Virus record (IMG/VR): IMGVR_UViG_3300044645_001180
Coordinates: 1 to 24,076 of that record
Origin: a virus
Length of the DNA: 24,076 nucleotides
Strand: one strand, 5' to 3'
The notes beneath the pieces are model-generated. The model ran no database searches, had not been told where the DNA came from, and was given only the letters and a program-made list of their open reading frames with translations. How positions within the stretch are numbered: position 1 is the stretch's first letter; every line of letters begins with the position of its first letter. A program made the translations under genes and the position numbers. This document shows, piece after piece, positions 7,530 through 19,359 of this stretch.

Positions 7530-9365
7530 TTAAAAGGCATCGTTGCTAATATCTGAAAATTCATTCTTTGGGATGAAGTCCCAATTATCTTTTTTGTTTA
7601 TTGGTGTGTCGAATGCTCCGTTAGGCTTTATTGGGGTTGGTGGTAGTTCAAATGCTTCTACTTGTTTCTTTTCTCCTAATATCCAATTGGTATTATCAGG
7701 AATAAATGTATAATATCTGCCATTGATAAAATGCCATCCCAATGAACACATTGTGCCTGACTGACCCCAGTGTTTAAATTTTACTTTTTGTATGTATATT
7801 TCTGTTTTCTTGGAATCATAGTTGCGATATACGGTTAATCCGTTGTGAGTTTTATTAAAGAAGTTTGCAGATCCATTTATGTTGTAAAGGTTTGGCACTT
7901 CAAATAATCCTGTTTTTTTATCTTTCATAATCTTTGTTGGGTGAGCCACAAGAAAACAATGTACCATATTTCTTTCACAAAATGTTGCCAATATATCCAA
8001 TTGTTTTGAAACATAGTGTGTTGAATCCTCATTGTGTTCAAGTTTATTCCAAGCATCAATTACAAAAGCATTTACTCCGTATTTTCGGATTAAACTTTTT
8101 ACCATTCTCAATATATCCTCAAGTTTAAAATCATTTTCGGGTTTTATGAAAAAAAAGTTTTTAGAAAAGTAATCTTTGGCCAATTCCAATTCCATTTTAT
8201 TCATTTTGTAATTTCCATCAAATGCTTTGCCTATTAATTTTTCAGCAAACTTGCTAAAGTGAAGTTCTAAAGGATAGTTTTCAGGGCTGAATAAACCAAA
8301 CTTCCACCCGGCACGAATGTTTAACGATGCACAAATAAAATCTAATACCTCCGACTTTCCGTGATTTGGGATGCCTGTAATCGTTGTGATGTATCCTAAA
8401 TGAAATTTAAGGTTTTCATCAAATGTTTCTAAGCCTATTGTTTCTCCTTGTGGCAATCCGTTGTTGTAATAATTATCTATCTCTTCGTTTAAGTCTGTGG
8501 AGGTAAATATGCCTACCAATGGATACTCTATTTTGTTGTTTATGCTTTCCAATACTCCATCCATTCCATACTTAACCAAGCATTCATTTGCATCCTTGCA
8601 ATCTTTGAACGCTACCTTTGAGCAGTTTTCAACTCCTAATCTTCGTGCAAATTCATCTCTTAAACTATTCCCTGCTTGGTCATTATCTAATGCCAATATA
8701 AACCTTGTATCTTCATCAAATAAGTCAATGCAATTATCTAAGTAAGTAAGATTGTTTCTGCCTATTGTAGCACCATTTGGAACGCTAATAACATTTTCAA
8801 TTCCGCACTCAATTAAAGTTAAGCAATCAATTTCACCCTCAACAATTATTATTTCTTTTTGGTCTTTTATTGCATCCAAATTATAAAAAATCAACTCAGC
8901 ATCTTTTGCTAACTTAAATTGTTTGTTACCAGTGCGATATTTTACGTTTATCAATTCACCATCTCTAAAGTAGTTAAATTGTACGGTGTTGATGTTTCCA
9001 TTTGTTTGTGGCATCCATTCTAACCCCTCTGTAATCTTTGCCTTTAAAAGTGTTTTTTGACTAATCTTTCTGCCCTCAAACCACTTAACCAACTTTTCAG
9101 ATAGTGTTGTTTCGTTTTTCCAAATCGGTCGTTTATATTCAATCCTTTGGTAGTTGTTTTCTAATTTCTCTAACTTCTTGTAAAAAGCCTTACCACAATG
9201 AGAGCAACTTCCTACTTCCTTTGTTGCATTGTAGCTAAAGCATTTATCTTTTGACTTTTTCCTTTCGTGAGAACATGCTGGGCAAGTCTGTTTGTTTTCG
9301 CCACCTTTGGAAATATCAATTTGATATTCACGCTTTGATTCCTTTTCTATTACTGCTATTGTCAT
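7530..9365 (-). CDS. Bifunctional DNA primase-helicase (T7 gp4-like)
   Basis: A 611-aa replication protein. The N-terminal zinc ribbon has CPAC (28-31) and CSHC (54-57). The TOPRIM primase core shows IIIVEGEIDCLTL (173-184) and ALDNDQAGN (225-233). A DnaB-type RecA fold follows, with Walker A GIPNHGKS (331-338) and Walker B NAFVIDAW (432-439), then a VAHP segment (473-476). This is the domain order of T7 gp4 and Twinkle. It should unwind the fork and lay primers for the lagging strand. The start lies 2 bases after the stop of the initiator gene, matching the usual initiator-helicase pairing. Confidence 0.92.
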   Translation of the reverse strand: MTIAVIEKESKREYQIDISKGGENKQTCPACSHERKKSKDKCFSYNATKEVGSCSHCGKAFYKKLEKLENNYQRIEYKRPIWKNETTLSEKLVKWFEGRKISQKTLLKAKITEGLEWMPQTNGNINTVQFNYFRDGELINVKYRTGNKQFKLAKDAELIFYNLDAIKDQKEIIIVEGEIDCLTLIECGIENVISVPNGATIGRNNLTYLDNCIDLFDEDTRFILALDNDQAGNSLRDEFARRLGVENCSKVAFKDCKDANECLVKYGMDGVLESINNKIEYPLVGIFTSTDLNEEIDNYYNNGLPQGETIGLETFDENLKFHLGYITTITGIPNHGKSEVLDFICASLNIRAGWKFGLFSPENYPLELHFSKFAEKLIGKAFDGNYKMNKMELELAKDYFSKNFFFIKPENDFKLEDILRMVKSLIRKYGVNAFVIDAWNKLEHNEDSTHYVSKQLDILATFCERNMVHCFLVAHPTKIMKDKKTGLFEVPNLYNINGSANFFNKTHNGLTVYRNYDSKKTEIYIQKVKFKHWGQSGTMCSLGWHFINGRYYTFIPDNTNWILGEKKQVEAFELPPTPIKPNGAFDTPINKKDNWDFIPKNEFSDISNDAF

Positions 9366-10607: not shown

Positions 10608-12773
10608 TTAGAATGCAGAAATTTGTTTCTTTGTTTCCATTAAAGTTGCAATATTCTTTTTGGCTAAATCAAAGTAACTTTCTTTTAATTCAATTCCAAC
10701 ACCTCTACGCTTCATTTTAACAGCTTGAAATACCTCTGAGCCTATTCCCATAAAAGGTGTAAAAACACTATCCCCCTCGTTAGAATATAAATGTATAAGT
10801 CTTTCAATAGTATCTAATTGCAATGGACAAATATGCTTTTCATCGTTTTCATCTCTTGCATTTCTATACCCTTGCAAAGTATTTCCATAGTCAATATCCA
10901 TCCAAACAGGAGAAGCATATTTTTGCCACAAATCAACTGGTAAATTAGTATTTGTAACTGGATTTGTTCCTTCGCCTTGTTTTCTAAAAATCATTACATA
11001 ATCAGGAATCCCAACTCTTACTTGAGTAGAGTCTTTTTTTACTTGCTTATGCAATAATCCTTTTGCTTTGGTTCTTTGCATTTCAATTACTGGGTCTTTC
11101 CAAATTGTAACTCTTGAATGATAAATAAATCCTGCTTCTTGAAAAGCTGTTAAAATCATTCCTGAAAAATCCCTTAATCCAATATATCCTTCTTTACCCT
11201 TTTGGATTGGCAAATCCATACAATGCACCGCAACATTACGACCATCAATCAAAACTCTGTTTAGTTCTTTTATTAAAAAACCAAACTGAATTAAAAATTC
11301 TTTATAATCTTTAGAGTTTCCCATGTCTTCAATATGATTTGAGTAAGTGTATAGTTCTGCAAATGGAGGAGAAAAAACACTTAATCCCTGACTTTTATCA
11401 GGCACATTTTTAATTAGTTGTACTGAATCTCCTCTCATAATATGATAAAACTCATTCTTTACTTCGTCAATATTGTAAGATGTTTGTAACATTTTATCGC
11501 CTCGTAAATTGGCATTTATTGATTCACTCATTTCATTTTGCATAATTTCAAATTGTTTTTGTTTGTTATCTATTGATTGTTTTACGTTTGCCATTGTATC
11601 TGTTGTGATTAGGTAGATATTAACCTCATTTTTTTGCCCGAATCTATACGACCTCCTAATGGCTTGGTATAAACCCTCAAAACTAAAATCTAATGAAGCA
11701 AAAATTTGATTTCTGCAATTTTGATAATTCATTCCAAAACTTGCAATCTTTGTTTTTGTTATCAAAATCCTAAATTCATTATTTGCAAATCCTAATAACT
11801 TTTCCTTTTTCCATTCGTTAGAATCTGAGCCTTTAACTTCAATAGCTTCAGGTATTAATTTTTTCAATAGTTCGCCTTCTTCATTTTGTTTTATCCAAAT
11901 AATAAAATTTTCATCAGGCTTTTGATTAATTAAATTAACTACTTCATCAAGTCTTTCAATTTTAGTTAATCTTAACTCGCTATTAAAATTTGTTGCTGAA
12001 ATAATTGCATCATTAAACAATTGACCGTTATCTCTATCAGGTGTTATAATTTGTTTTTCAATCAAATTTAAACTAGGCAAATCGTAACCAACCATATCAA
12101 ATCCAATGTCCTGTGGTTTATTTAACATTATTGCCCAAGTACCTATAAATTGATAAAATAGCTTTACAGCATGTCCTTTTAACCTCCATTTAGCTGTTTC
12201 GCCTCCATCGTGGATAAAGTACATTGATAGCATTTGATTTCTGCTCATAACGTCTAAAAATTCACTATGATTACCTAACTCCATAGGGTCGTTTGGGCTT
12301 GGTGTTGCAGTACAAGCTAATTTATAAGGTGTTTTTCTAAACAAATCTAAAATTAGATTTTTTGTAGCACCTTCAAAATTTTTCAAAATAGAACTTTCAT
12401 CTAAAACAATGCCTGAGTAAATAGAACAGTCTATGTTTTCAAGTTGCTCATAATTTTGAACATCTATAAAATCCATATTGATTCCAAACTTACCTCCCTC
12501 TTGTTTAGTTTGTCCTACCACTGCTAAAGGTGCTAATATCAATACTGGCTTACTTGTTTGTATTGATACTTGATTAGCCCATTCCAATTGCATTAATGTT
12601 TTACCAAGTCCACAATCTGCAAATATTGCATACTTACCAGCTTTTAAAGCACGTTTAACAATAAATTTTTGAAAAGGAAACATATTTTTATTAAGTTCAT
12701 TTTCATTAATTTCAAATCCACTTTCAATGTGTTTTTTTTGTTTTGTTTCTAAAAATTTTAAATAGTCTTCCAT
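10608..12773 (-). CDS. SF2 helicase-DNA methyltransferase fusion
   Basis: A 721-aa fusion. The N-terminal half is a SNF2-like SF2 helicase with Walker A ADCGLGKT (52-59), motif II DESS (125-128), motif III TATPSP (155-160) and motif VI QAIRRSYRFGQ (370-380). The C-terminal half is an amino-methyltransferase with motif IV SPPF (468-471) before motif I FTPFMGIGSE (671-680), the beta-class order for N6-adenine or N4-cytosine modification. A single polypeptide that couples translocation and methylation recalls parts of type I/III or ISP systems, but no nuclease domain is seen. The likely role is self-methylation of phage DNA, perhaps linked to replication. The gene has its own promoter and a pseudoknot leader. 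Confidence 0.9.
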   Translation of the reverse strand: MEDYLKFLETKQKKHIESGFEINENELNKNMFPFQKFIVKRALKAGKYAIFADCGLGKTLMQLEWANQVSIQTSKPVLILAPLAVVGQTKQEGGKFGINMDFIDVQNYEQLENIDCSIYSGIVLDESSILKNFEGATKNLILDLFRKTPYKLACTATPSPNDPMELGNHSEFLDVMSRNQMLSMYFIHDGGETAKWRLKGHAVKLFYQFIGTWAIMLNKPQDIGFDMVGYDLPSLNLIEKQIITPDRDNGQLFNDAIISATNFNSELRLTKIERLDEVVNLINQKPDENFIIWIKQNEEGELLKKLIPEAIEVKGSDSNEWKKEKLLGFANNEFRILITKTKIASFGMNYQNCRNQIFASLDFSFEGLYQAIRRSYRFGQKNEVNIYLITTDTMANVKQSIDNKQKQFEIMQNEMSESINANLRGDKMLQTSYNIDEVKNEFYHIMRGDSVQLIKNVPDKSQGLSVFSPPFAELYTYSNHIEDMGNSKDYKEFLIQFGFLIKELNRVLIDGRNVAVHCMDLPIQKGKEGYIGLRDFSGMILTAFQEAGFIYHSRVTIWKDPVIEMQRTKAKGLLHKQVKKDSTQVRVGIPDYVMIFRKQGEGTNPVTNTNLPVDLWQKYASPVWMDIDYGNTLQGYRNARDENDEKHICPLQLDTIERLIHLYSNEGDSVFTPFMGIGSEVFQAVKMKRRGVGIELKESYFDLAKKNIATLMETKKQISAF

Positions 12774-14182: not shown

Positions 14183-14746
14183 TTACAAAGTTGTTAAAAG
14201 GGTTTCTACTTCTTTAGATAAACGATATTTGGCTTTGATTTTATCAATAGTGCCATCGCCTTGCAACCATTCCTTTGCCTTTGCAAATTGTTCACTATCT
14301 TTATTTAACCATGCCTTTTCTATTTGTGCCGGTTGTGGTGTTGGATTACTTGCTTTGTTGCCATCGTCATCTTCTGCTCCAACATTTACCAAAGATTGCA
14401 AACCGTATCTTCTTGCATAGGTTATCCCTGAGCCTTGCGATTGAGCATCGTTTTGTTTGCTGTAAATGATTTCAGTTAGTGCTTCGATACTTTCTCCACT
14501 TTCGTGCAAAAGGATTGTTTTAATGAAGTTTTTGCCATCAATAAAGGCAGTTGGCTGAAGTACCACAATACCATTGTCGTTAAGGTGTGGCATACATGCT
14601 TCCCGAATGTCATTTAATGAAGCGTAAGAATTTTTAAAGAAAGGATTTAAACTTCCTTTTTTTGCATTTGTCATTTGCTTTTGAGCCTTTAATAAGGCAG
14701 TTGCAATTAGTTTCATAGTTGTTTTTGTTGTTAGTTGATTTTCCAA
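14183..14746 (-). CDS. erf: ERF family single-strand DNA annealing protein
   Basis: A 187-aa ERF recombinase. The N-terminal half has ALLKAQKQMTNAKKGSLNPF followed by FKNSYASLNDI, and residues 101-130 hold the family signature SQGSGITYARRYGLQSLVNV followed by an acidic GAEDDDG. It anneals complementary single strands in phage recombination and replication. With the ATG at 14746 it overlaps the DUF3127 gene by 16 bp. An internal ATG at 14716 would remove the overlap and has a typical AT-rich leader, so the true start may be 10 residues shorter. Confidence 0.9.
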   Translation of the reverse strand: MENQLTTKTTMKLIATALLKAQKQMTNAKKGSLNPFFKNSYASLNDIREACMPHLNDNGIVVLQPTAFIDGKNFIKTILLHESGESIEALTEIIYSKQNDAQSQGSGITYARRYGLQSLVNVGAEDDDGNKASNPTPQPAQIEKAWLNKDSEQFAKAKEWLQGDGTIDKIKAKYRLSKEVETLLTTL

Positions 14747-16912: not shown

Positions 16913-16948
16913 AGTTTATTGATATAGTTTTGGTACGCAAGTCGAGTA

Positions 16949-16957
16949 GTTAGTGGC
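16949..16957 (-). other. Remnant attC R'' core at the distal end of the array
   Basis: The plus strand reads GTTAGTGGC here. Its reverse complement GCCACTAAC lies at 17700-17708, the other end of the same cassette. This is the R'' core expected at the cassette's 3' end, 11 bases after the stop at 16968. No stem arm or R' box follows on the minus strand, so the attC is truncated and the phage gene at 16912 begins soon after. Confidence 0.65.
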
Positions 16958-16967
16958 AAATGCTACG

Positions 16968-17111
16968 TTACTGCTTCGATTTGACATTCTGCTTTTTCAC
17001 AGCGTTGTTTAAAGCATTTTCCATCCATAAAGTAAGATTACCGCCAGTTGTTAAATTGGCTTGTTCTTGCCAGTTTTTTATATCTTCTGCATTAAACCGT
17101 TTCGGGAGCAT
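16968..17111 (-). CDS. Small ribbon-helix-helix-like protein, last gene of the distal cassette
   Basis: A 47-aa product from the ATG at 17111 (MLPKRFNAEDIKNWQEQANL, then NLTLWMENALNNAVKK). The second half has the amphipathic helix style of ribbon-helix-helix or small DNA-binding proteins. Upstream ATGs at 17132 and 17153 would lengthen it to 54 or 61 residues but increase the overlap with the 159-aa gene, which is 20 bp with the chosen start. The stop lies 11 bases from the R'' core of the cassette, as in typical cassette genes. Its role is uncertain, perhaps an antitoxin or accessory to the 159-aa protein. Confidence 0.5.
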   Translation of the reverse strand: MLPKRFNAEDIKNWQEQANLTTGGNLTLWMENALNNAVKKQNVKSKQ

Positions 17112-17571
17112 AGTGTCTCGTTTCTTTTTCATATAAATGTTTGAAATTTCCATCTTTAATTAATACTTCAACTTTAGGCATTGGTATGTCCCATCTTTTT
17201 CTAAAAATTCCGCTTCTTTTAGATTTATTACCATAGTATTCTCTCATGTCATAAGCAGCAATTTTTTCATCAAATCGGTATCTCGGAAAATCATTTTCAA
17301 TAACCCAACCTTGAGTAAGCCACCATTTCCAATTGTTTTTTATAAGTTTTTCAAACTCCAAAGTAGTTGAAGGTAAATATTCACCCATCTTTTCAATTAA
17401 GTCCCCAATCCAAGAAAATGTAACTTCGTCTTGAATTAATGAATTTACAATGTAATCGGATAGTTTAATTTCAAAATAGTGAGAAACAAAATCTCTTTTG
17501 CCAATAACCCTTACAATCCCATTTTTATCTACTTGAAATGGAGTGTCTGAATTTGTTTTGAATTGATACAT
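17092..17571 (-). CDS. Cassette gene of unknown function (159 aa)
   Basis: The main gene of the distal cassette. It is soluble, rich in aromatic residues and basic toward the C-terminus (EYYGNKSKRSGIFRKRWDIP). I recognise no family. A central segment with several tryptophans (LIKNNWKWWLTQGWVIENDF) and a C-terminal basic patch could bind nucleic acid. The gene starts about 130 bp after the cassette boundary, behind its own Bacteroidota-type promoter (17603-17634). Carriage by a cassette suggests an accessory or defence-type role, but nothing in the sequence shows it. Confidence 0.65.
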   Translation of the reverse strand: MYQFKTNSDTPFQVDKNGIVRVIGKRDFVSHYFEIKLSDYIVNSLIQDEVTFSWIGDLIEKMGEYLPSTTLEFEKLIKNNWKWWLTQGWVIENDFPRYRFDEKIAAYDMREYYGNKSKRSGIFRKRWDIPMPKVEVLIKDGNFKHLYEKETRHYAPETV

Positions 17572-17602
17572 AATTTCTTCGTTTTAATTAATTATTGTAA
17601 TG

Positions 17603-17634
17603 CAAATGTATATACAAAAACAATACAAACCAAA
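17603..17634 (-). promoter_or_regulatory. Promoter inside the distal cassette
   Basis: On the minus strand TTTG (17634-17631), a 20-bp spacer and TACATTTG (17610-17603) fit the Bacteroidota consensus. Upstream lies a 30-bp A/T-rich segment (17648-17677) that matches 27 of 30 bases of the segment upstream of the promoter in another cassette (18783-18812). Confidence 0.6.
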
Positions 17635-17699
17635 ATTATTTTCAATTTTTTTAAAATATTTTCTAACTGACTGAAAATGAGTGCTAAAAATCCGCATCA

Positions 17700-17836
17700 G
17701 CCACTAACAAGCGGTTAGCGTCATTGCCGTTTTCGTGGTTTGTTGAAGTTTTGTTTTCCATATCAAATTTTGTTTTTAAGTTAAAGTTTCGTGTTCCAAA
17801 GTCGGCAACGAACGCTAACCGCCATACCGTTATGCC
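17700..17836 (-). other. attC site 1 (137 bp)
   Basis: Bounded by GCCACTAAC (17700-17708) and GTTATGCC (17829-17836). The arms GCGGTTAGCGT (17711-17721) and ACGCTAACCGC (17811-17821) pair perfectly. After a small internal loop, TTGCCG pairs with CGGCAA further in. The middle is a variable region with TTTCGTG. The size is at the upper end of known attC sites. It ends the cassette with the 126-aa gene, whose stop directly abuts it. Confidence 0.82.
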
Positions 17837-18217
17837 TCATGCTAAAGAGACACGGTGTAATCCTTTTTCATTTGGGCTTAAATCGACACTAAAGACAAAT
17901 GAAGACTTACCAGTTTCCAAAAGACCGAAAGTATCATCAAAGAAATTCATCAAATCTTTTGACGAAAACCTTAATGTGTGTGGGTCTTTACGGCTTAATT
18001 TAAAAGCATCGTCTTCATCATCTTTTACGACATAAGCAGTCTTTGCCTTTTGGTTAAATCCAAACATTAAACCATCGTTGTCATCAACATTCAAAACCTT
18101 TGCGACAATATCGCTGACAATAAACCGGCCGTTTTTTAACTCCAGTTTTATGACTGGTTTTTTAAAAGTCCTCAATTGTGAATGAGAACTACGTTTTACA
18201 AATATTATTTCTTCCAT
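17837..18217 (-). CDS. Cassette gene of unknown function (126 aa)
   Basis: A 126-aa soluble protein, basic at the N-terminus with two predicted halves: a beta-rich region (VIKLELKNGRFIVSDIVAKV) and a region with DNDGLMFGFNQKAKTAYVVK then HTLRFSSKDLMNFFDDTFGL. It resembles hypothetical proteins I associate with Bacteroidota mobile DNA, without a known function. The TGA stop at 17839-17837 touches the attC R'' box, and the ATG is about 50 bases inside the cassette start. This is classic cassette gene placement. Confidence 0.72.
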   Translation of the reverse strand: MEEIIFVKRSSHSQLRTFKKPVIKLELKNGRFIVSDIVAKVLNVDDNDGLMFGFNQKAKTAYVVKDDEDDAFKLSRKDPHTLRFSSKDLMNFFDDTFGLLETGKSSFVFSVDLSPNEKGLHRVSLA

Positions 18218-18262
18218 TTTATGATATATTTTTATATTGTTTTATGAGATAAAAAGCACGAA

Positions 18263-18348
18263 GGCATAACACGGGTTTGGCAAAATGGCTTTCCGACACA
18301 CAAGCCAACGCACAAAAGCCACTTCGCCAAGCCCGAAACCGTTATGCG
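18263..18348 (-). other. attC site 2 (86 bp)
   Basis: Bounded by GGCATAAC (18263-18270) and GTTATGCG (18341-18348). The arms starting CGGGTTTGGC and ending GCCAAGCCCG pair with one G/T difference, and a second block (TGGCTTT with AAAGCCA) continues the stem after a 5-nt internal loop. The unpaired spacers are A on one side and AAACC on the other, the same asymmetry as in attC 3. Confidence 0.85.
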
Positions 18349-18506
18349 TCACCTTTAAGACTTCCCGAAACATAATCCTTAACCATTTTTTTAATCGGTT
18401 CGACAAATTCGACACGGACACGAAAAGCAATAGTTTTTGTTTGGTAAGGAGCAGGTTTGCGACCTGCCCCCTTTCTTTTTCCTCCTTGTTTTAGTATTTT
18501 TTGCAT
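18342..18506 (-). CDS. Short GAGRKP-type protein, possible DNA-binding (54 aa)
   Basis: A 54-aa gene starting MQKILKQGGKRKGAGRKPAP and continuing YQTKTIAFRVRVEFVEPIKK, a known style of short bacterial and phage proteins with a KGAGRKP start followed by TKTIxFRV, probably ribbon-helix-helix-like. The ATG (18506-18504) overlaps the end of the 68-aa gene by 16 bp, suggesting coupling. The TAA stop (18344-18342) lies inside the attC R'' box CGCATAAC, a hallmark of cassette genes. Its small size makes it easy to miss. A regulatory or antitoxin partner role for the 68-aa protein is possible but not shown. Confidence 0.75.
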   Translation of the reverse strand: MQKILKQGGKRKGAGRKPAPYQTKTIAFRVRVEFVEPIKKMVKDYVSGSLKGDA

Positions 18507-18697
18507 ACACTTAGAAATAGTTTGTCAGCGATTTCAGTTGCTTTTAAAAATGTGTCAGCAAATTTTTCAATAAATACACCACCTTCTTCGTCATAAACCA
18601 ATACTGAAAAGTTATTCATAAAAGTTTCTTCGATTTCACAAGTGATAGTGTTGATTGAGTTTACTTTTTTTGTTTTGTAGATTGTTGAAGTTTCCAT
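18491..18697 (-). CDS. Cassette gene of unknown function (68 aa)
   Basis: A 68-aa acidic protein with a beta-rich middle (NNFSVLVYDEEGGVFIEKFA) and a C-terminal helix (DTFLKATEIADKLFLSV). I recognise no family. It is the first of two overlapping genes in its cassette and follows a near-perfect Bacteroidota promoter (18727-18757). Paired small overlapping genes in a cassette often are toxin-antitoxin pairs, but neither product shows a toxin motif, so this is only a possibility. Confidence 0.62.
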   Translation of the reverse strand: METSTIYKTKKVNSINTITCEIEETFMNNFSVLVYDEEGGVFIEKFADTFLKATEIADKLFLSVCKKY

Positions 18698-18726
18698 TTT
18701 TTTATTTTTTAATTGTTATCTGAGTA

Positions 18727-18757
18727 CAAATATACAACCTATTTTGATAACTGCAAA
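18727..18757 (-). promoter_or_regulatory. Promoter inside the two-gene cassette
   Basis: On the minus strand TTTG (18757-18754), a 19-bp spacer and TATATTTG (18734-18727) are a perfect match to the Bacteroidota consensus. The next bases TACTCA and a later ACAATTAAAAA stretch also occur in the leader of the recombination operon (15350). Confidence 0.68.
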
Positions 18758-18836
18758 CTTTTTTCAAAGTATTTTTCATTTATTTTTAAAATATTTTATA
18801 AATAACTGAAAATCAACACAAAAAAAATAAGGCGAA

Positions 18837-18923
18837 CGCATAACAGCACATAAGCAAAAGCCCAAATTCCTCGCTAAAGCCAACGCTATTTGTGCCTTCG
18901 CTTATCTGCAAACGTTAGCTGCC
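18837..18923 (-). other. attC site 3 (87 bp)
   Basis: Bounded by CGCATAAC (18837-18844) and GTTAGCTGCC (18914-18923). The inner arms GCACATAAGC (from 18846) and GCTTATCTGC pair with one mismatch, and AAAAG/CTTC blocks lie beyond. The spacers are A and AAAC. It ends the cassette with the SGGxFDYxQY gene, whose TAA stop lies in its R'' box. Confidence 0.82.
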
Positions 18924-19196
18924 ATTTTTAGACAAGTCCTCCGAAAGTCGTTGATGAAATGTTTCCTCTCCATCATCACCTGATAAAAGCAAATCAATTC
19001 TTTGGGCATAAATCTGTGCCTTTTTTAGTAATTCAATTCCTTTTTTGAACTCATTAATTGTTTCTTCTTTAAAATTATTTGGCTCAAACCAATCTTCTTT
19101 TCTTGGTTCGGCATTATTGTTTCTTATTTCTTGTTCAATTCCATCAACTATTTCTGTGATGCTATATTGTAAGTAATCAAATCTTCCTCCTGACAT
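18915..19196 (-). CDS. SGGxFDYxQY family protein (93 aa), cassette gene
   Basis: Starts MSGGRFDYLQYSITEIVDGI and ends with AQIYAQRIDLLLSGDDGEET followed by FHQRLSEDL. This is a small family seen in many bacteria and phages, always starting SGGxFxYxQYxI, with no proven function. An earlier in-frame ATG at 19244 would run across the cassette boundary and attC 4, so the start at 19196 is right; it lies 18 bases after the boundary. The TAA stop (18917-18915) lies inside the attC R'' box GGCAGCTAAC. Confidence 0.8.
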   Translation of the reverse strand: MSGGRFDYLQYSITEIVDGIEQEIRNNNAEPRKEDWFEPNNFKEETINEFKKGIELLKKAQIYAQRIDLLLSGDDGEETFHQRLSEDLSKNGS

Positions 19197-19213
19197 AATT
19201 TGTAATTTAAAAC

Positions 19214-19304
19214 GGCAGCTAACAAGGCTTTGCGTAATAGCCATATCAAGTGTCGTGGTTAATTTTAAGTTTATACTAAGGGCTACTACACAAAGCCCCG
19301 AATC
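19214..19304 (-). other. attC site 4, proximal end of the array, R'' degenerate
   Basis: GGCAGCTAAC (19214-19223) is the intact R' side, with the arm AGGCTTTGCGTAATAGCC next to it pairing with GGCTACTACACAAAGCCC (from 19281) at 15 of 18 positions. Where AAACC-GTT would be expected at the other end, the sequence is AATCTTTATT. The R'' box of this site is therefore degenerate or replaced at the phage junction. Confidence 0.68.
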
Positions 19305-19359
19305 TTTATTTTAATGATTTTTCATACATTATAGACTATAATTATAGTTAATGATTGAA

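Follow-up and report, generated by a model that had tools for sequence, protein, structure and literature searches.

How does a phage genome come to carry a row of integron gene cassettes with no integrase beside them? The question is raised by an array that lies among minus-strand genes of IMG/VR virus record IMGVR_UViG_3300044645_001180, which was analyzed over its whole length of 24,076 bases (hereafter the window). We are confident that this segment is an integron-type cassette array seated at a dedicated hotspot of a phage, most likely one that infects Bacteroidota, and that works by a mechanism that we infer below. That the same arrangement recurs in many Bacteroidota viruses suggests that viruses exchange genes cassette by cassette.

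The initial annotation had described four cassettes, each bounded by a core and its own reverse complement, and all four pairs proved exact: GTTAGCTGCC at 19223/18914, GTTATGCG at 18844/18341, GTTATGCC at 18270/17829 and GTTAGTGGC at 17708/16949. The two cores of a cassette, R' and R'', are complementary without mismatch over 8-10 nt in all four. Hairpins fold at 18923-18837, 18348-18263 and 17836-17700, and in each the gene strand is more stable than the other strand. A covariance model was built from 18 aligned bacterial attC hairpins, none of which came from a phage or matched the motif used in our scans; it recognized these three internal hairpins with E values from 8e-15 to 3.6e-10, which bears out the integron-type assignment, and a further, outermost hairpin at 19312-19216. 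No additional match at E < 0.1 was found in the rest of the window. The four matches all lie on the minus strand in one orientation, the tandem arrangement of a cluster of attC sites lacking an integrase (CALIN). The outermost hairpin is an attC whose R'' has decayed (TAAAG for TAACG), a mismatch visible in the model alignment, and its intact counterpart is present in the related contig L202. No attC family was found in Rfam. The last core, 16957-16949, lacks a hairpin since it is not half of an attC; it forms the junction to an attI-like site. The features of the array are as follows.

16931..16951, plus strand: attI-like site, TGGTACGCAAGTCGAGTA followed by GTT, with the inferred exchange point G/TT between 16949 and 16950
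16949..16957, plus strand: R' core of the attI-proximal cassette, GTTAGTGGC, exact reverse complement of 17700-17708
16950..17829, minus strand: cassette 4, attI-proximal, with a 159-residue gene (17092-17571) and a 61-residue gene (16968-17153); no family match was found for either
17603..17633, minus strand: Bacteroidota-type promoter, TTG-N20-TAnnTTTG, within cassette 4
17701..17836, minus strand: attC hairpin; the minus strand fits the model, E = 8.2e-15
17830..18341, minus strand: cassette 3, with a 126-residue gene (17837-18217); no family match was found
18263..18348, minus strand: attC hairpin, E = 3.7e-12
18342..18914, minus strand: cassette 2, with a 68-residue gene (18491-18697) and a 54-residue gene (18342-18506, phrog_8312)
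18727..18756, minus strand: Bacteroidota-type promoter within cassette 2
18837..18923, minus strand: attC hairpin (model match 18921-18837, E = 3.6e-10)
18915..19312, minus strand: cassette 1, at the far end, with a 93-residue gene (18915-19196, MSGGRFDY..., phrog_6724)
19216..19312, minus strand: outer attC with decayed R'', E = 1e-6
19313..19345, no strand: conserved flank of the backbone, bordering the array at its far end

We collected about 45 related contigs by scanning with the terminase, a 351-residue protein encoded upstream of the array and an array-adjacent gene. Their homology to the window is lost at 16949-16963 and, at the far end, mostly at 19313-19315 (19293-19294 in two relatives), with unrelated sequence in between. 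Cassette sets differ in nearly every relative while both flanks stay constant, making the segment a hypervariable hotspot. Contig L048 carries the same array as the window. Through the array, L038 and L047 are 99.8% and 99.4% identical to the window; L038 carries a single additional complete cassette (190 bases) and L047 carries two (together 1.6 kb). Both insertions fall exactly at 16949, the attI-like junction, between ...GCCACTAAC and TACTCGACTTGCG, and each added cassette closes with the reverse complement of the core that opens it. The core-bounded presence or absence of single cassettes for which the initial annotation had proposed looking was therefore found, and we read these differences as gain rather than loss of cassettes. 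Cassette 4 is identical in L038, L047 and L048; the hairpin at 18263-18348 recurs in L055 and L056 with different genes. Across the array-bearing relatives R' and R'' are complementary over 7-12 nt in essentially every complete cassette, and the larger cassette genes often include N6/N4 and C5 DNA methyltransferases.

Followed in gene order, the relatives' arrays open on a variable hairpin and close on a bare R'', beyond which the sequence is conserved; the integron order therefore runs the other way, from a simple site at 16931-16951 through the cassettes to the backbone. For a matrix we took 51 terminal junctions from the arrays of other, unrelated phages, leaving out the relatives of the window; these junctions have a motif in common, with the consensus AGTTGCGTATATCGAGTA followed by GTT. 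Under this matrix, window positions 16931-16951 ranked first among 1025 sites preceding a GTT, which identifies them as the predicted attI-type site at the start of the array. Two other readings were rejected. An array read in gene order with attI at 19300 would place the site where the relatives have a variable hairpin, and there is none at 16949. A last attC truncated at 16949 fails since the last R'' of the relatives is followed by the same conserved sequence, whose consensus recurs in other phages. The idea that the phage had simply acquired an array is not supported, for the lineage has its own attI-like docking point at which cassettes turn over singly.

Two observations concern such sites. 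In the 219-kb contig IMGVR_UViG_3300042540_001822 (L199), single-cassette insertions at 7618, 8337 and 9235, minus strand, each end at a copy of attI-like TCGTTTATTTGTCCAG, making it a phage with several docking sites. Between L038 and the window, identity drops from 99.8% on the array side to 95% past the attI-like site, as though phages also recombined with one another at this point.

The attI-to-attC order runs on the plus strand of the window and the genes run against it, the reverse of the polarity that had been assumed. When the strand matched by the covariance model was used as a test, 33 of 35 bacterial cassettes opposed the model strand and 30 of 30 viral cassettes followed it (Fisher p = 1.6e-16); the usual layout, with the gene in attC direction, is thus inverted in all 30 viral cassettes versus 2 of the 35 bacterial ones. 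An independent count based on hairpin asymmetry gave 24:4 for bacterial genes running with the attC and 100:2 for viral contigs running against it. Only one bacterial exception, L078, is solid; its contig also encodes a terminase and a replicative helicase, which marks it as a phage binned in a bacterial metagenome-assembled genome (MAG), and a cassette on it matches relative L051 over 862 bases at 95%. Phages therefore draw on a pool of cassettes with flipped genes, likely because their attI-like site is oriented opposite to the operon, so that only flipped genes would be read with it. It follows that phage and bacterial cassette pools can be told apart by sequence alone.

In GTDB genomes the attC motif likewise occurs in at least 120 stretches, most of them from Bacteroidota. 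Arrays of Chryseobacterium kimseyorum, Sphingobacterium CZ-2, S. litopenaei and Empedobacter falsenii adjoin a tyrosine recombinase that is 274-360 residues long. It is about equally similar to XerA, an XerC-like protein and IntI4, and matches the IntI profile TIGR02249 as two stretches flanking a missing IntI-specific insertion. Its best family is the XerA-like NCBIfam NF040815 ("site-specific tyrosine recombinase/integron integrase"), on which two of the bacterial proteins score 234.6 and 223.4 bits against a cut-off of 220; no other tie of this family to attC arrays was found in the literature searched. In six of seven bacterial loci, the attI matrix derived from phages ranked the junction between recombinase and first cassette 1, 1, 1, 1, 2 and 6.

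Forty further Bacteroidota loci were chosen by recombinase similarity alone. Of these, 8 had outward-polarity attCs on the 5' side under a permissive criterion (in about 5 they were of the typical 120-base kind), 13 had them on the 3' side, and none had them on both. Integron-like arrays beside XerA/IntI-like recombinases occur on Bacteroidota chromosomes in two layouts (L323, L316, L371, L380 and others): the recombinase is divergent from the array, or faces it with the attI 66-123 bases past its stop codon. We did not use a recombinase tree as proof; array-linked members clustered, in more than one clade. Candidate G015, a recombinase present in five near-identical copies beside a transposase-like gene, was set aside for that reason. 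Arrays with attCs of the same type, having long and strongly self-complementary hairpins, also occur in three MAGs named Oscillospiraceae (L083, L118, L120), outside Bacteroidota, through either transfer or binning error.

These bacterial sites bear on the possibility that the cassettes are real but turn over through homologous recombination or annealing between hairpins of similar sequence, with no integrase at all. The phage does encode an Erf-like protein, the 86-nt hairpin is 95-97% alike across different arrays, and the loss of identity to L038 past the attI junction is what such exchange could produce. However, recombination of this kind would not be expected to preserve the 7-12 nt match between R' and R'' in every new cassette or to place each join at the core, and it would leave unexplained an attI consensus that phage arrays share with recombinase-linked bacterial sites. 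We regard it as improbable.

We give still less credence to movement of the cassettes by a canonical host IntI, although attCs from phages, including one from a Polaribacter phage, recombine with IntI1 in E. coli (PMC9892861). Only 1 of the 35 attC-scan genomes searched, mostly Bacteroidota, had a protein above the TIGR02249 cut-off, and it was broken and had no adjacent attC; sub-threshold matches to this profile were rejected as evidence, being uninformative, with Xer-type matches in every genome including 14 controls. Complete IntI integrons are also very rare in Bacteroidetes (PMC9024848). Hardly credible, and already strongly disfavored, is a bacterial CALIN captured once by illegitimate recombination and now carried as passive phage cargo, the reading proposed for published phage CALINs (PMC9892861), which would suit the lack of an integrase in the window and 22 related records and the decayed outer attC, because array content varies in nearly every relative between constant flanks, near-identical phages carry 0, 1 or 2 additional cassettes at one point, and the cassette genes are oriented opposite to those of bacterial arrays.

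The initial annotation was right that an integrase is missing: none was found next to the attI-like site or elsewhere in the window or in the 22 related records, which are fragments of at most 37.8 kb and in which no tyrosine recombinase was found, and so the enzyme for this phage is probably supplied in trans. Among 45 other array-bearing viral records, 5 have a tyrosine recombinase, 4 of them in the bacterial array-linked family. These phage-borne enzymes are 41-47% identical to the bacterial ones; two scored 206 and 176 bits on NF040815, under its cut-off of 220. The recombinase gene stands at the attI end of the array, directly after the attI-like site, in L408 and L410, and a family member lies beside the array in L407 and L409. 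Cassettes are also shared between phage loci that are otherwise dissimilar. L234 holds the methyltransferase cassette of L047 (87% over 831 bases), with core-exact ends and different flanks, and in the 169-kb phage L407 this cassette lies next to the recombinase; an L050 cassette recurs in L263 (92%), again with core-exact ends and different flanks. Movement of cassettes between hosts, as first suggested, is plausible; the movement evidenced by our data is between phages.

We propose that, on the plus strand, the array reads from the attI-like site through cassettes 4, 3, 2 and 1, each with a terminal attC, into the backbone. Circular cassettes would recombine through a folded attC strand with the attI-like site and so be added at the attI end, with loss and reshuffling occurring by attC x attC exchange. 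The catalyst would most likely be an XerA/IntI-like tyrosine recombinase of the type found next to arrays on Bacteroidota chromosomes and in some larger phages, a link suggested by position and motif sharing, and would come in trans from the host or a co-infecting phage. Inverted genes would be captured in the orientation set by attI and read with the phage operon, and some phage cassettes also bring their own Bacteroidota-type promoter.

Such a system has the attI x attC logic, core-bounded cassettes and polar addition at attI of IntI integrons (class 1, Vibrio; chromosomal or mobile). Unlike those, its phage cassette genes run against attC polarity, and its integrase is absent from the phage or is XerA/IntI-like without the IntI insertion. 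The variant is real and is widespread in apparent Bacteroidota phages. We think it probable that Bacteroidota and their phages have a second kind of integron, with an integrase lacking the IntI insertion, an attI of the form TTGCGTATAT-N6-GTT, its own attC, and a dedicated phage pool that has evolved reversed gene polarity; some phages would bear the integrase themselves, whereas others, the phage of the window among them, would bear just the docking site and rely on the enzyme in trans. The authors of IntegronFinder reported one complete integron in Bacteroidetes (PMC9024848), so the array-linked class seems to have been missed (the genome library searched was incomplete).

Phage attC arrays are not as uncommon as first supposed: our IMG/VR motif scan found the motif in at least 119 stretches, and Qi et al. 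published phage CALINs in 2023 (PMC9892861), including one in the virulent Polaribacter phage P12002L. That integron parts occur in phages and can be used by IntI1 was thus already known. The phage CALINs of that report resemble the window in being attC arrays with DNA methyltransferase cassettes and no integrase, and differ from it in being presented as rare, passively captured clusters; the available part of the report describes no attI-like docking site, reversed polarity, cassette-wise turnover among relatives or non-IntI recombinase. P12002L has a hairpin of the same type and the same gene polarity as the window, and a weak model match (E = 8e-4) elsewhere in its genome. Four findings are, to our knowledge, new: a phage hotspot with an attI-like site, reversed polarity, turnover by single cassettes among relatives, and the association with a non-IntI recombinase both in Bacteroidota and in phages.

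What looked like a phage with a stray attC array becomes a system with predictions, in which phages exchange accessory genes as single cassettes at a fixed docking site. The many DNA methyltransferases among the cassette genes could counter restriction. Our results also suggest that searches based on IntI greatly underestimate how common integrons are in Bacteroidota, and name a candidate enzyme. Homology-free integration in Riemerella anatipestifer, also Bacteroidota, is likened here by description, involving a gene with a 140-base attC-like 3' end (PMC13148043); the enzyme sought for this integration of a resistance gene may be the array-linked recombinase.

Several points weigh against this interpretation. 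The bacterial attCs in the covariance model were taken from contigs located with a motif of the phage attC family. The array-linked recombinases score 145-212 bits against an IntI cut-off of 265, several recombinase loci have no detectable attC, and L324, one of the seven bacterial attI sites, falls outside the attI matrix. The layout rule for the recombinases was adjusted after the data were seen, the wrong-side matrix control having first been high, as some arrays lie 3'. An empty site, predicted as the joined flanks, had no match in IMG/VR.

A Bacteroidota bacterium is probably the host, judging from sequence features, because promoters of the Bacteroidota type (TTG-N18-21-TAnnTTTG) are in excess on the minus, or gene, strand (13 seen versus 1.24 expected) and the attC type of the window was found mainly in Bacteroidota in the GTDB scan. 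A DNA search of annotated phages gave only short matches to other Bacteroidota phages and did not find the array. Minus-strand genes of the window include those for a large terminase, a tape-measure protein, the Erf-like annealing protein (14183-14746) and a helicase-methyltransferase. The last of these, at 10608-12773, encodes a protein of 721 residues that DNA helicase families match over the greater part of its length; its C-terminal half also matches DNA methyltransferase families.

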